A DNA stretch of 37,420 bases from a virus. Shown here one piece after another: positions 9,815 through 28,958 of this stretch. The DNA is taken from IMG/VR virus record IMGVR_UViG_3300000101_000053, positions 1-37,420 of that record, one strand, 5' to 3'. The first letter of the stretch is position 1, and each line of letters starts with the position of its first letter. Under the pieces are notes generated by a model. The model was not told where the DNA came from. It did no database searches and saw only the letters and a program-made list of their open reading frames with translations. A program made the position numbers and the translations under genes.

Positions 9815-10000
9815 TTAGTGTCTAGCCTCTGCGCAATCATCACAAATCAATCTATTCTCGTTCCCATCAATATAGATTAAGTGAGTATAGATAGATTTGC
9901 TTTCTTGCCAATTGCGGTTACAATCATAACAGGTTCTAAAGCATTTTCGGTATTTAATGTTACTAAGCATATCAACGTACAGTTTGAATTGATAAATCAT
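9815..10000 (-). CDS. Small zinc-ribbon-like protein
   Basis: The 61-residue protein contains CYDC (Cys24, Cys27) and CDDC (Cys53, Cys56), about 25 residues apart, as in a treble-clef or zinc ribbon; Cys20 is extra. The rest is short strands and a basic N-terminus. Such small zinc proteins are common at the ends of phage early operons, often as DNA- or RNA-polymerase-binding factors, but no specific family was recognised. It shares a 4-base ATGA overlap with the upstream gene and ends 9 bases from the terminator, so it is the last gene of the long minus-strand operon. Confidence 0.7.
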   Translation of the reverse strand: MIYQFKLYVDMLSNIKYRKCFRTCYDCNRNWQESKSIYTHLIYIDGNENRLICDDCAEARH

Positions 10001-10260
10001 TTTTTATTAGCATAGTTATTTAAAGCTCCCATGTATGCTACAGCATCTAGGAGATTATCTTCTTTGTGACTGTGCTTCTGCCTAGATAGCTTTAAGGCTA
10101 ACATAGCCATAAACATATCTTCAGTTGTTAATTTATAGCCAGTCATAGCATTAAATATGTCTCGCATACTATCCATGCTATCTGAGAAGGATCCATACTG
10201 GCGTTTCTTCTCTTCAGACCGTTCGTTAACAATACGGTTGGCTTCTTTTAAGATATTCAT
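9997..10260 (-). CDS. DUF6378-like phage protein
   Basis: The 87-residue product has the pattern of DUF6378 phage proteins: an N-terminal helix with RQYGSFSDSMDSM, a central TTEDMFMAMLALKLSRQKHSH, then DNLLDAVAYMGAL. The all-alpha layout with a conserved K(L/V)xR and a final D-x-x-D-x-(A/V)-x-Y resembles small nucleotide-pyrophosphohydrolase-like helical folds, though the catalytic ExxE set is not complete here. Function unknown. It is coupled by ATGA overlap to the downstream zinc-ribbon gene. Confidence 0.7.
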   Translation of the reverse strand: MNILKEANRIVNERSEEKKRQYGSFSDSMDSMRDIFNAMTGYKLTTEDMFMAMLALKLSRQKHSHKEDNLLDAVAYMGALNNYANKK

Positions 10261-10629: not shown

Positions 10630-11046
10630 TTAATTTTTTATGTTAACTGAAATAGGTAAGAACACCTTACCTGCTGTATACTGATTGACCCACAGCTTTT
10701 TAGTTCTAAATATTTCTTTGAGTTGCTTTTTATCTAAATTAAAGATCCAAGTTACTGGATTGGTTCTATCTATACGCTCACCAAAAGCAACTCCACCTGC
10801 ACTAGCGCAAGCCTCAAGTCCCATCAAGCCTATTGTAACAGGCTGTAGATCTTCATTGAAGGTTAACTGCGTAACTGTAATACCTGACGTTTCATAGAGT
10901 TGAGCTAATTCATTATCAGTCAATTCAAAACACATGCTATATGGAACCGATATGTTGTTTCTATGCTTGAAAATATATAAACTTTCATAGTCTTCTTGGT
11001 CTTCAGCTAATACACAGTTGTGACCCGCAAATTTAAATGACTTCAT
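10630..11046 (-). CDS. Hypothetical protein, 138 residues
   Basis: This product has an alternating strand/helix pattern without a known motif. Features include an N-terminal strand (KSFKFAGHNCVLAED), a middle helix (LTDNELAQLYETSG) and a Gly/Ala-rich LEACASAGGVAFGERIDR segment. No signal or TM segment is present, so it is presumably cytosolic. Its ATG overlaps the dCMP deaminase stop as ATGA, so it is translationally coupled to a nucleotide-metabolism gene. That association is the only hint to its role. Confidence 0.65.
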   Translation of the reverse strand: MKSFKFAGHNCVLAEDQEDYESLYIFKHRNNISVPYSMCFELTDNELAQLYETSGITVTQLTFNEDLQPVTIGLMGLEACASAGGVAFGERIDRTNPVTWIFNLDKKQLKEIFRTKKLWVNQYTAGKVFLPISVNIKN

Positions 11047-11444
11047 ATTTTAGTTAATGTTACCCCAGCTTTAATTAGAAGTTTAACTCCTTCTGAGCTT
11101 CTATACTCTTTTCTGTATACAACTCTAATTATACCGGATTGGATTATAAGTTTAGCACATTGAATACATGGAACCACTAAGGTATAAATAGTAGCTCCTG
11201 CAGAACATCTAGTAGATTTAGCTAATTTGGTTATAGCATTAGCTTCTGCGTGTAAAACATGAGCATAGGTATTACCTTCAAAATCTTCACATGTGTTATC
11301 AAAACCTGAAGGAGTACCATTGTAACCGTCAGATATTATAGAACCGTCTTTAACTATTATAGCTCCTACTTTCAATTTCTTAGCATAAGAATTGAGGCTC
11401 CAAATTTCAGCTATTTCCATATAGCGTTTATCTAAATTCCGCAT
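11043..11444 (-). CDS. dCMP deaminase (deoxycytidylate deaminase)
   Basis: The 133-residue protein has the zinc-binding cytidine/deoxycytidylate deaminase signature: His65-Ala-Glu67 (HAEANAI) and PCIQC with Cys93 and Cys96. YNGTPSGFDN near residues 41-50 and a central strand (VGAIIVKDG) match the dCMP deaminase family of phages and bacteria. It converts dCMP to dUMP, the substrate of thymidylate synthase, and so feeds dTTP synthesis. The start at 11444 overlaps the helicase gene by 17 bases. With dUTPase and a TS-family gene in the same operon, it forms a pyrimidine supply set. Family assignment is firm; allosteric control cannot be read from sequence. Confidence 0.93.
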   Translation of the reverse strand: MRNLDKRYMEIAEIWSLNSYAKKLKVGAIIVKDGSIISDGYNGTPSGFDNTCEDFEGNTYAHVLHAEANAITKLAKSTRCSAGATIYTLVVPCIQCAKLIIQSGIIRVVYRKEYRSSEGVKLLIKAGVTLTKI

Positions 11445-19390: not shown

Positions 19391-19770
19391 TTTTCTATTA
19401 TTTTTTCAATGGATGCTATATACTCCGATAAGGTTATAGAACCACCATGGAGTATAGCATCATGTATTAACGAATTAGACTTACGTACGGTTGTAACCCA
19501 AGTCTGTGTATTTAATCTAGCCTCAAAATTGTCTCTTTTAAAAATATGAACATTTTCAACGGTCTCATGTTTCCAGACACCGGAATACAATTCATTGATA
19601 GATATATTAGCTAGTTCTGCTAATATTTTAGCTTGATCGACATCCAATTTAGATATACCATTAATCACTCTGTTAAGAGCATGGTATGGATGCCTATTAC
19701 TAGGAAACAAATGATTTGCTACCTCAGTATTACTTAATCCGGTTTTAGTGATGACCTTTGATAGGTTCAT
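19381..19770 (-). CDS. HTH (XRE-like) DNA-binding protein
   Basis: The 129-residue protein has a Cro/CI-type helix-turn-helix at residues about 1-62: SKVITKTGLSNTEVANHLF, then ALNRVINGISKLDVDQAKIL, then ELANISINEL. A C-terminal domain of about 65 residues has no recognised fold, but ends in a helix (YIASIEKIIEKC). It is a plausible regulator of the early or replication genes and could recognise the dyads or array at 27.3-28.4 kb, though nothing shows that directly. It is coupled by ATGA overlap to the TS-family gene. Confidence 0.75.
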   Translation of the reverse strand: MNLSKVITKTGLSNTEVANHLFPSNRHPYHALNRVINGISKLDVDQAKILAELANISINELYSGVWKHETVENVHIFKRDNFEARLNTQTWVTTVRKSNSLIHDAILHGGSITLSEYIASIEKIIEKCK

Positions 19771-20402
19771 AATTTCAAGTGTTTATTGTATAAATGTAAA
19801 TCAGCAGCAAAGTGATAATACCAACCTACGTTTAGGTTGAGTCTCTTAGCTACTAAAACCTGTAGTTTAGAAAAGCAATATTGATCATTGCAAAAACCGA
19901 ACCAAAGGTCGTTAGACCTCATTATGACTTGCATGCACAACTCGTTTTCTATTATTCTAAACCCTACATTTAACGTGCAAGGTGTATCTTTCTCGTACGT
20001 TTCAATCTCCTTAGCATCATATATTGTAATCCAAGCACGTCTTGTATCTTTATCTTCTTTCAGTAGTTTAATCACCTTTTCGAGTTGATTGTTTCTCTTC
20101 CACTGCCATCCGTAGTTACTGTTAACTATGTCATCGCCAGTATGCATTTTATCCCATATAGGTGCATACTTTTTAATGTTCTTAACAGATCTGTCACCAG
20201 ACAAATACCACTTCCATTCGCGTTCAGCATATCTGTCAGACCACTTACGCCAAAAGGTTCTTATCTGGTTATCTATAGGATTTTCAATGATGAATCCAAC
20301 ATTGAAAAGAGCCTTTGTGCCATTGTCTAACTTTAAACCATTCTTCTTTATTTGATAATAGAAGTGTTTAAAAGCAATATCTGCACTAGTGAATTTATTC
20401 AT
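19767..20402 (-). CDS. Thymidylate synthase-family enzyme (TS or pyrimidine hydroxymethylase)
   Basis: The 211-residue protein belongs to the TS superfamily. Catalytic Cys142 lies in DTPCTLNVGF, DKDTRRAWI gives the phosphate-binding arginines, MRSNDLWFGFCND matches the RSxD nucleotide-binding loop, and DLHLYNKH gives the terminal His203/Tyr205 pair. Aligning from RS, the position of E. coli ThyA Asn177 is Asp173 here. That replacement is the hallmark of dCMP hydroxymethylase (T4 gp42) and changes base preference from U to C. The protein also ends soon after the HLY motif, about 50 residues shorter than ThyA. It could therefore make dTMP or hydroxymethyl-dCMP/dUMP. It lies between dUTPase and the HTH gene. 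Confidence 0.85.
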   Translation of the reverse strand: MNKFTSADIAFKHFYYQIKKNGLKLDNGTKALFNVGFIIENPIDNQIRTFWRKWSDRYAEREWKWYLSGDRSVKNIKKYAPIWDKMHTGDDIVNSNYGWQWKRNNQLEKVIKLLKEDKDTRRAWITIYDAKEIETYEKDTPCTLNVGFRIIENELCMQVIMRSNDLWFGFCNDQYCFSKLQVLVAKRLNLNVGWYYHFAADLHLYNKHLKL

Positions 20403-20845
20403 TATTTATCTCCTGTTGATCCAAAACCTCCATCGCCACGCTCAGTTTGAACACCGCCATAAAGTGCTTGGTGTGAATTGACTAATTCTATTTCATCATA
20501 GCACACATACCTAACAATACCTTGAGCCAATTTGGCACCTGGATCTATTACCTGCGTTTCTGTTCCTACATTTATAAGATGTAGATGAACTTCTCCTTGA
20601 TAGTCATTATCAACAACCTTAGCACCTATAATAAGAAGTTTTTTGGCTACACTAGATTTGTTTTGAAAGACTAGATCGGTACCTTTAGGTAGCTTAATCT
20701 TAAGACCTGAAGGTATCAAAGCATCTTCGCCTGGTTCTATGTACCAAGGAAATAAAGCCTCAGGCACAAAGAAATCAATACCAGAACTCAATTCAGTTCC
20801 ACGTTCGGGAGTCTTGACATCCCGGATTTTCCACATTTTAATCAT
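20402..20845 (-). CDS. dut: dUTPase (deoxyuridine 5'-triphosphate nucleotidohydrolase)
   Basis: The 147-residue protein carries all five trimeric dUTPase motifs: SGIDFF (residues 21-26), NKSSV (62-66), GAKVVDNDYQGE (74-84), GAKLAQG (103-109) and the C-terminal RGDGGFGSTG (136-145). It hydrolyses dUTP to dUMP and pyrophosphate, keeping uracil out of DNA and supplying dUMP. The normal length and intact motif 5 suggest an active homotrimer. The start at 20845 shares one base with the stop of the upstream methyltransferase. It works with dCMP deaminase and the TS-family gene. Confidence 0.96.
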   Translation of the reverse strand: MIKMWKIRDVKTPERGTELSSGIDFFVPEALFPWYIEPGEDALIPSGLKIKLPKGTDLVFQNKSSVAKKLLIIGAKVVDNDYQGEVHLHLINVGTETQVIDPGAKLAQGIVRYVCYDEIELVNSHQALYGGVQTERGDGGFGSTGDK

Positions 20846-21609
20846 TATTTTTGCTTTAGGATCCAGATTGTGTTCCGGCTATGCTCCGGAAAGAATGGAG
20901 CCATGATGTTTGAAATAAGGTTTGCGTCGTAATATGCTCTTAGGCTATTGAACATCATTTTTTGCCAATCGTTCATGTGTGGCCTGTAATCTCTCATACT
21001 AGCGAAAGTGCCAAATTTGTTTACGATTCTGAAGTGTCTTTCTAAAATGTCTTGTAACTCGAAGTGTCCAAACTCTTGAACGTCTACACCTCTTCCATCG
21101 CCAGAATCATAGGTATGGTTACCAGCAGCTCCTACTATTGGATCGTAGTTAGGAGTGGATAGATAGTAGGTAGCATTTTTATGCCCACAGGCTTTAAAGT
21201 TCTCTAAGAACACATCAGCATTTTGCTTTCCAACATGTTCTATAACCTCAAATGAACATACTTTATCTGCCTCAATAGCAGAGTAATTATAATCATTTTT
21301 GCATAAATCAGCACAATCAAATTCAGCCCAATCAACTTTGGCAAATTTATCATTTGCTACTCGGATTGTTCTTTCTCTGATGTCGATGCCTATGTACCGA
21401 CTTTGCTTAAAGCGATTGCGGTATAGGACTTCTAATAGGTTTCCTCCTCCACAACCGAAATCACACATCACTTCGCCTATTCTAGCCTCTTTTAAGATGT
21501 GAGTCCATCTTAGGTAGTGTGCGAACTGGTCACGGTGGAATACGTGCCTTTCAAATGTTGTTACTGGATTGAGGTCCGTAACATTGTACTTAGACTTGTC
21601 AATTTTCAT
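20845..21609 (-). CDS. Class I SAM-dependent methyltransferase
   Basis: The 254-residue protein has the Rossmann methyltransferase core. Motif I is CDFGCGGGNLLE (Asp50-Phe-Gly-Cys-Gly-Gly-Gly), GIDIRERTI is the acidic end of the second strand, and CSFEVIEHVGK is the family's post-motif region. A C-terminal extension has YLSTPNYDP and an Asn/Tyr-rich DYRPHMNDWQ. This form resembles UbiE/small-molecule methyltransferases more than DNA methylases; no DPPY-type motif was seen. The substrate is unknown. It lies between small unknown genes and dUTPase, so a role in nucleotide or DNA-precursor chemistry is possible, but that is inference from context. Confidence 0.85.
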   Translation of the reverse strand: MKIDKSKYNVTDLNPVTTFERHVFHRDQFAHYLRWTHILKEARIGEVMCDFGCGGGNLLEVLYRNRFKQSRYIGIDIRERTIRVANDKFAKVDWAEFDCADLCKNDYNYSAIEADKVCSFEVIEHVGKQNADVFLENFKACGHKNATYYLSTPNYDPIVGAAGNHTYDSGDGRGVDVQEFGHFELQDILERHFRIVNKFGTFASMRDYRPHMNDWQKMMFNSLRAYYDANLISNIMAPFFPEHSRNTIWILKQK

Positions 21610-27663: not shown

Positions 27664-27711
27664 AATATATAATGGCTTATTGCCTTTATTTATTTAATAA
27701 AAATTTTATAG
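27562..27711. repeat. 75-bp tandem duplication with promoter-like core
   Basis: Positions 27584-27616 and 27659-27691 match closely at an offset of 75 bp and share GTTATAATATATAATGGC followed by TTATNGCC. Each copy begins with one dyad site. The A/T-rich core may be a promoter or an unwinding element placed next to its operator. Confidence 0.8.
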
Positions 27712-27716
27712 GTTTG
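27709..27716 (+). promoter_or_regulatory. Possible plus-strand promoter -7 element
   Basis: TAGGTTTG fits the Bacteroidota -7 consensus TAnnTTTG and lies just before the first repeat block, upstream of the rightward packaging genes. No clear -33 element was found, and short words like this occur by chance. Confidence 0.35.
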
Positions 27717-27724
27717 TACATACT

Positions 27725-27831
27725 GAAGGTTCAGAAGGTTCAGAAGGTTCAGAAGGTTCAGAAGGTTCAGAAGGTTCAATAAAATTGAAGGTTCAATAAA
27801 AATTGAAGGTTCAATAAAAATTGAAAGTTCA
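27725..27831. repeat. Repeat block A (GAAGGTTCA units)
   Basis: Six directly adjacent copies of the 9-bp GAAGGTTCA start at 27725, followed by copies at 27787, 27805 and a variant (GAAAGTTCA) at 27823. The later ones are separated by ATAAAAATT. All are in the same orientation. Confidence 0.95.
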
Positions 27832-27935
27832 TTTGAATTGATTATAAATAAATCGAGGATCGCGATCTGGTACACATAATATTAAACCTAATGGATCCGA
27901 ATGTGATTCGTATATAATATAATATAAATAATCAC

Positions 27936-27951
27936 GATTCCTTAGAACGCG
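27936..27951 (-). repeat. Dispersed 16-bp word, copy 3 (inverted)
   Basis: GATTCCTTAGAACGCG on plus is the reverse complement of the words at 9212 and 22736. Here it sits between repeat blocks A and B, in a short stretch without GAASGTTCA units. The flanks differ from the other two copies. Confidence 0.85.
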
Positions 27952-27980
27952 CGAGAATGGATCGTGGTTCAGTCCTAATT

Positions 27981-28213
27981 GAAGGTTCAATAAGGATTGA
28001 AGGTTCAATAAGGATTGAAGGTTCAATAAAAATTGAAGGTTCAATAAAAATTGAAGGTTCAATAAAAATTGAAGGTTCAATAAAGCCTGAAACCTCACAG
28101 GCTCAATCAGGACTGAACGTTCAATCAGGACTGAACGTTCAATTAGGACTGAACCTTCAATTAGGACTGAACGTTCAATAAGGATTGAAGGTTCAATGGA
28201 TTCTGAACGTTCA
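27981..28213. repeat. Repeat block B (18-bp units)
   Basis: Twelve copies of GAASGTTCA (S = G or C; one GAACCTTCA) in two phased runs: 27981 to 28071 every 18 bp, and 28115 to 28205 every 18 bp, with a decayed unit (GAAACCTCA) at 28089 and an 8-bp phase shift between runs. The 9-bp spacers are ATAAAAATT, ATAAGGATT or ATNAGGACT. The spacer type changes from left to right, so the block grew in steps. Confidence 0.95.
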
Positions 28214-28286
28214 ATTTGAATTGAAAGTAACCAAATAGGTTATACCGTAATCAGATTGGTTACGTTCAGTGGATTCAATCCGTACT

Positions 28287-28376
28287 GAACCTTCAATTAG
28301 GACTGAACGTTCAATAAGGATTGAAGGTTCAATGGATTCAATTCGTACTGAACGTTCAATCCTTATTGAACGTTCA
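28287..28376. repeat. Repeat block C (18- and 27-bp spaced units)
   Basis: Five copies of GAASSTTCA at 28287, 28305, 28323, 28350 and 28368. The 27-bp step between the third and fourth equals one and a half units, so the true module is 9 bp. GAACGTTCA units sit in TGAACGTTCA, a perfect 10-bp palindrome. Confidence 0.95.
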
Positions 28377-28388
28377 ATAAATACTGAA

Positions 28389-28423
28389 AGGAGGGGCCCC
28401 CATGCGACCACAGAGCCTCTCCT
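28389..28423 (+). other. GC-rich palindrome and stem upstream of the small terminase
   Basis: GGGGCCCC (28393-28400) is a perfect 8-bp palindrome in otherwise AT-rich DNA. It is part of a 9-bp stem (28389-28397 with 28415-28423, one G-U pair). It lies just after repeat block C and about 120 bases before the small terminase start, where cos or pac sites often are. The stem resembles the hairpin at 22964-22986. Confidence 0.4.
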
Positions 28424-28517
28424 AGGTAACTCTGCTATCTGGAGAATAGCTGATGTAGACATATTGTTATCTAATAACTGCCCCACAGCACAGCCTAGGG
28501 GATTAATAAACTTTATC

Positions 28518-28958
28518 ATGGCATATAACTTAGAAAGACTAAAAAGATTAGCCTTAGAGGCTATAAAGGAAGAAGAGATAGTTTTCATATCTGAACTCCC
28601 TTTGTACTTACCGTGTGTTAGGACTACGTTCTATCATCACAAACTACACGAAGACAAAGACATCATAGAGGCTATACAGTATAATAAGATCTCGATTAAA
28701 GCGCAGCTTAGAAAGAATTGGGCCAAGTCTAAGAATGCTATACTTAATCTAGCTCTTTACCGGTTATTAGCCAATGACGATGAGCGTAAAAGGCTTATAC
28801 ATAATAAAGAAGACGTCGGCGAGCTAGGTAATAAACCTAATATTCCAGCTATATCCTGGACCACTAACAATATTAACATACAACCCACCGACACAAACCA
28901 ACAACCCTCAAACCCTATTGTCATCGACATCACGCCTAAAACCGATCCAGAATCATGA
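28518..28958 (+). CDS. terS: Small terminase subunit (putative)
   Basis: The 146-residue product begins at ATG 28518 (MAYNLERLKRLALEAIKEEE). The frame is open further upstream into the repeat array, but those 83 codons are low-complexity repeat translations, so this Met is preferred. The N-terminal third is a helix-rich region compatible with a DNA-binding domain (LYLPCVRTTFYHHKLHED), the middle is basic (AQLRKNWAKSKNA), and the tail is Pro/Thr-rich and probably flexible. It overlaps the large terminase start (ATGA), the usual arrangement. TerS would recognise the packaging site. Assignment rests mainly on position. Confidence 0.65.
   Translation: MAYNLERLKRLALEAIKEEEIVFISELPLYLPCVRTTFYHHKLHEDKDIIEAIQYNKISIKAQLRKNWAKSKNAILNLALYRLLANDDERKRLIHNKEDVGELGNKPNIPAISWTTNNINIQPTDTNQQPSNPIVIDITPKTDPES

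Follow-up and report, generated by a model that had tools for sequence, protein, structure and literature searches.

Does a phage gene that carries a thymidylate synthase (TS) label supply dTMP, or does it supply a modified cytosine for the phage DNA? The question is raised by an ORF at positions 19767–20402 (minus strand) of a 37.4-kb uncultivated virus record, which was analyzed over its whole length (hereafter the window) and in which tailed-phage genes are present. The original prediction, made from this DNA alone, held that the protein leads to a modified cytosine rather than dTMP. Its residues, predicted fold, conservation and gene context all support that claim, and from sequence and a structural model we are highly confident that the ORF encodes a folate-dependent dCMP 5-hydroxymethylase.

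Active site and C-terminus of the TS-fold protein

The ORF encodes 211 aa between an ATG start and a TGA stop, and belongs to the TS superfamily. It matched PF00303 (1.8e-24) and phrog_160 (1.4e-42), and its best NCBIfam TS score of 71.1 bits failed the curated cut-off of 174.55. The AlphaFold model (pLDDT 95.4) found its best fold match in MilA (Foldseek, TM 0.93), and relatives in Bacteroides phages with 58–59% identity are annotated as dCMP hydroxymethylases. Taken alone, the enzyme simply adds a further, ordinary member to a known family: a predicted dCMP hydroxymethylase recovered from under the label 'thymidylate synthase'.

In the TS family, Asn at position 177 picks uracil and Asp picks cytosine (PMC8670742; PMC5175136), and positions 177 and 147 are associated with modified phage DNA (PMC8670742). 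The original prediction had equated Asp173 with ThyA Asn177, and the alignment bore this out: the stretch from the RSND loop to the Asp aligned without gaps to both ThyA (RSCDVFLGLPFN177) and T4 gp42 (RSNDVVFGFRND179), so that the assignment of residue 173 (codon 19884–19886, minus strand) is unambiguous, and the base-contact site holds Asp, as does T4 gp42 at Asp179, and not Asn. Hydroxymethyl-dUMP, which had been offered in brackets as an alternative product, was rejected because both dUMP hydroxymethylases and TS have Asn at the base site (PMC5175136); the Asn characteristic of SPO1 gp29-type dUMP hydroxymethylases is replaced by Asp here.

The residue three before the nucleophile is also informative, with Asp or Glu activating the water that gives a hydroxymethyl group and Leu occupying the position in TS (PMC6400193). 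In the window protein it is Asp139 (codon 19986–19988, minus strand; Asp145 in T4 gp42), three before C142, and the remainder of the hydroxymethylase signature is present as S95 and Y97. The match of D173, D139 and S95/Y97 to the determinants published for the T4 enzyme (PMC6400193) supports assignment as a dCMP hydroxymethylase. The catalytic Cys is followed by Thr143, as in T4 gp42, where TS has His147, and the folate-activating Glu (Glu60) is found as E62. Selection of deoxy- over ribonucleotides goes with Ser/Arg in place of Ala176/Lys133 of MilA (PMC5175136), and S163 and R121 form this deoxy-selecting pair. The hallmarks of ThyA are missing: D173 stands for Asn177, T143 for His147, and the C-terminal tail is absent.

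The protein had been said to stop soon after the DxHxY motif, and indeed it ends (HLYNKHLKL) six residues beyond Tyr205 of the HLY motif and lacks the last ∼50 residues of ThyA, including the V262-A263-I264 tail. A frameshift or truncation was ruled out as the cause: relatives stop at a similar position, ending 0–18 residues beyond the match when extended to their own stop codons, and we conclude that the short C-terminus is a family trait. Asp occupies the 177-type position in all 68 aligned relatives, most of them 53–63% identical, and none of E62, D139, C142, D173, R121 and Y97 varies in an alignment of 53 sequences whose identities extend down to 26–32%. Because Asp173 and the short end are both kept across the family, neither is due to chance or sequencing artefact.

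Among characterized enzymes, T4 gp42 dCMP hydroxymethylase (1b49, 6a9a) shares the base-site Asp, the SxY motif, the Asp three before the Cys, the Thr after it, the catalytic Glu and the absence of the TS tail; it differs in its ∼20 extra C-terminal residues and is ∼30% identical, and its neighboring decorator is a glucosyltransferase where that of the window is a methyltransferase. The nearest solved relative in fold and sequence is the CMP hydroxymethylase MilA (5b6d, 5jnh), which has the same base-site Asp; MilA, however, favors ribo-CMP through its Ala176/Lys133 pair, where the window protein resembles deoxy-specific enzymes, and it carries an extra C-terminal domain that the window protein lacks.

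Predicted mechanism and rival chemistries

From these residues we infer a reaction in which Cys142 would attack C6 of dCMP, Asp173 would bind and protonate the cytosine ring, and Glu62 would activate methylene-tetrahydrofolate. A water positioned and activated by Asp139 with Ser95 and Tyr97 would attack the exocyclic methylene to give 5-hydroxymethyl-dCMP; with the tail absent, the site would be open to water and no hydride would be transferred to produce a methyl group. The product would then be phosphorylated and taken by the phage polymerase, and the resulting DNA would be shielded; hydroxymethylated cytosine building blocks very probably let the phage DNA resist host restriction enzymes. 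A dUTPase-family protein (PF00692; 20402–20845, minus strand) with a role in the nucleotide pool is encoded between the hydroxymethylase and methyltransferase genes, and a dCMP deaminase, a recurring cassette partner, is encoded at 11043–11444 (minus strand); together they would feed dUMP to ordinary dTMP synthesis. Neither a kinase for 5-hydroxymethyl-dCMP nor a clear dCTPase was recognized in the window; these roles could fall to a kinase of the host or to the dUTPase-family protein. The explanation as a whole, comprising this mechanism, the pool genes and a methyltransferase acting on hydroxymethylcytosine, seems to us quite likely.

Other chemistries are found within the same superfamily. 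RB69-type phages have a TS-superfamily 5-hydroxy-dCMP synthase (PMC13390438), and the structure 9iqc, a riboflavin-dependent monooxygenase with dCMP and FAD, is by sequence RB69ORF048c. The window protein might likewise be a flavin-dependent dCMP 5-hydroxylase, with 5-hydroxycytosine as the anchor for decoration: RB69ORF048c shares the TS fold, a base-site Asp and a short C-terminus, and by Foldseek the overall fold of our model resembled 9iqc (TM 0.87) more than T4 gp42 (TM 0.83). However, in RB69ORF048c the catalytic Glu is replaced by Phe and RSND by RSQN, and the loop Gly is lost, whereas Glu62, Asp165, Gly169 and Trp83 are kept in the window protein and its family, and the family profile ranked 9iqc behind MilA (2e-37), T4 gp42 (9e-33) and the first true TS (2e-30). 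The loss of the catalytic Glu and of the RSND/Gly loop, a mark of the flavin enzyme that we propose from one sequence, does not extend to the window protein, in which E62, RSND and G169 are present. Because this rule rests on one characterized flavin enzyme, it argues strongly against flavin chemistry and falls short of proof; we consider such chemistry improbable.

A folate-dependent dCMP methylase making 5-methyl-dCMP, as in phage Xp12, whose DNA contains 100% 5-methylcytosine (PMC7653180), would also fit an Asp at the base site, since a TS with the Asn-to-Asp change alone methylates dCMP (cited in PMC8670742). The water-activating Asp139, invariant here and Leu in TS, and the loss of the C-terminal tail with which TS closes its site off for hydride transfer both speak against a methylase, which we judge very improbable. 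That the gene encodes an ordinary phage TS supplying dTMP is suggested by the PF00303 match, by the PHROG label 'thymidylate synthase' and by the dUTPase and dCMP deaminase genes of the same phage, which would supply dUMP. This identity was rejected on residues (Asp at 177, Thr at 147, Asp where TS has Leu, no tail) and on scores far under the NCBIfam TS cut-offs, and two distant phages (L142 and L163) encode a full-length Asn177 TS in addition to a separate Asp177 enzyme, with the methyltransferase nearer the latter; a dTMP-producing role is thus extremely improbable. We therefore retain the assignment of the ORF as a dCMP hydroxymethylase.

Linkage to a SAM methyltransferase

One gene upstream of the predicted hydroxymethylase, with the dUTPase gene between, lies a gene for a class I SAM methyltransferase of 254 aa (20845–21609, minus strand) with a DFGCG motif, an ExxEH motif (E121, E124, H125) and H165, which we predict to be a decorating enzyme. 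That a nearby methyltransferase belongs to the story was part of the original prediction and is now backed by strong gene linkage. Homologues are rare, with five records among 50,697 phage records (two of the five being the same phage, AXL3); a single-protein search returned near-identical contigs only, and an alignment search was used to raise this to 199 stretches from viral contigs plus a single one from genome contigs. An Asp177-type enzyme lay within 4 kb of the methyltransferase in 75 of 81 viral loci, and in the remaining six the contig ended 0.2–3.7 kb past the methyltransferase. All five phage records carry a cassette of methyltransferase, Asp177 enzyme, NTP pyrophosphatase and dCMP deaminase. 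In control loci gathered with the window's helicase, an Asp177 enzyme was present in 10 of 12 methyltransferase carriers versus 12 of 67 non-carriers (Fisher 2e-5). Conversely, the methyltransferase was found in only 12 of 80 loci seeded with the hydroxymethylase, and we therefore regard it as an add-on. A DUF6378 protein (9997–10260, minus strand) belongs to a family that recurs beside both genes in relatives, being near hydroxymethylase genes in 49 of 81 loci and often directly upstream of the methyltransferase; it showed no profile similarity to the MazG/PRA-PH-type NTP pyrophosphatases of other phages' cassettes.

We infer from this linkage that the methyltransferase probably, on balance, decorates hydroxymethylcytosine, in which case it would act on the nucleotide or on the base in DNA in the manner of the glucosyl- and carbamoyltransferases of other phages. 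One alternative explanation is that the enzyme is unrelated to base modification and is merely carried in the module, having for example an RNA or protein substrate. Its generic class I fold is compatible with such a role, as are its best known-structure relatives by profile, the Hen1 RNA 2′-O-methyltransferases (5e-9), and a weak PHROGs label of tRNA methyltransferase. An unrelated substrate nevertheless appears unlikely given the helicase-seeded control and the association with Asp177 enzymes, which holds across unrelated phages at identities as low as 25% and has no counter-example among loci with enough flanking sequence. The residues E121, E124, H125 and H165, which are invariant among the relatives, resemble the Hen1 metal ligands (Glu796, Glu799, His800 and His860; PMC10781085), but the protein scored 27.7 against a Hen1 cut-off of 340, far below it; the best NCBIfam match, a weak one, was to UbiG, another O-methyltransferase. 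Foldseek returned generic class I enzymes only, with N-methyltransferases first and Hen1 not singled out, and for that reason our choice of O-methylation over N-methylation is a preference and not a finding. If the methyltransferase does decorate hydroxymethylcytosine, the base made by the pair would be a methylated 5-hydroxymethylcytosine, tentatively and most simply 5-methoxymethylcytosine (O-methyl), or else an N4-methyl derivative; we put the chance that the DNA contains such a base at slightly below even. Within the literature searched, of which our coverage is incomplete, we found no description of 5-methoxymethylcytosine in phages or of methylation of a modified base.

The cultured Stenotrophomonas phage AXL3 has both an Asp177 enzyme and a methyltransferase homologue. 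Of 37 restriction enzymes, 35 fail to cut its DNA and the remaining two recognize sites made up of A and T only (PMC7504290), a resistance that the authors, who took gp28 for a dTMP synthase (PMC7504290), left chemically unexplained. Like the window, the gp27–gp31 cassette of AXL3, whose virion DNA is restriction-resistant, has a dCMP deaminase, and it also has a kinase-like protein and an NTP pyrophosphatase; its proteins are 25–32% identical to those of the window, and it differs in being annotated as a dTMP pathway. AXL3 gp28 (L091:8307–9116) has Asp both at 177 and three residues ahead of the Cys, and AXL3 encodes a separate thymidylate synthase complementing protein; judged by these residues, the TS annotation of gp28 is probably wrong. 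Because Gly takes the place of Ser94 in the AXL3 enzyme, which is only 32% identical to the window enzyme, the restriction data apply to the window phage by analogy. T4gt DNA, which contains 5hmC, resists 82% of enzymes (PMC7653180); since 5hmC alone gives such broad resistance, the AXL3 data fit a modified cytosine, and the methyl step goes beyond what resistance can reveal. Our prediction is that phages with the pair, AXL3 included, carry methylated hydroxymethylcytosine. If true, this would add a type of decoration to those in phage DNA, with bearing on restriction, CRISPR resistance, sequencing and enzyme tools.

Alternative candidate decorating genes and other features

Hydroxymethylase loci without the methyltransferase often have either a carbamoyltransferase (L011, L012 and L025) or a gene set that includes a pyridoxal phosphate (PLP)-fold enzyme (30 loci). 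A carbamoyltransferase of this kind was shown experimentally to modify 5hmC (PMC8670742), and L011 (4777–6498), L012 and L025 combine close relatives of the window enzyme with the carbamoyltransferase, matching the described 5-carbamoyloxymethylcytosine route. The sewage-phage cassette found by MetaGPA (PMC8670742) resembles the window in pairing a TS-family enzyme with a decorating transferase, often with a dCMP deaminase nearby, and differs in having the carbamoyltransferase where the window has a SAM methyltransferase. Among the loci examined, none had two of the three decorator types (methyltransferase, carbamoyltransferase, PLP set). In the hydroxymethylase-seeded set, the 12 methyltransferase and 30 PLP loci had no overlap (one-sided Fisher 0.002, an indicative value given that the contigs are partly redundant and their flanks cut). 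On a FastTree tree of the hydroxymethylases, the methyltransferase label changed 13 times, with at least five changes forced by well-supported branches. This pattern, in which the hydroxymethylase stays and its neighbor is exchanged again and again, is as expected of interchangeable hydroxymethylcytosine decorators. If this reading is true, the methylated base would take its place beside glucosyl- and carbamoyl-hydroxymethylcytosine as their methyl analogue, and its genes would be one of several decoration cassettes that phages can exchange for one another. The exchange of methyltransferase, carbamoyltransferase and PLP set beside one kind of hydroxymethylase also offers a simple rule for finding more modifications in metagenomes.

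The PLP set, seen at L003 (4411–7458), L017 (4451–7307) and ∼28 further loci, consists of a conserved PLP-fold enzyme (PF00291) and two uncharacterized proteins, one of which had zero matches among 50,697 phage records; these three genes adjoin the hydroxymethylase in the slot otherwise taken by the methyltransferase and could represent an undescribed cytosine hypermodification pathway. Some phages have two Asp177-type TS-family genes, as does Bacteroides phage BF503P1 (L085; 17110–17916 and 19989–20669), and pairs also occur in L189, L191 and L025, the second copy in L025 being putative. The second BF503P1 gene has Leu72 for the catalytic Glu, a Glu loss as in the RB69 flavin enzyme, and to judge by this substitution its product may have a different chemistry. 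Finally, low-complexity repeats at 27690–28588 of the window, which translate as FIEPSI, LLNLLN and RIERSV units, lie between two divergent gene blocks and close to the terminase gene, and are possibly a replication or packaging region.
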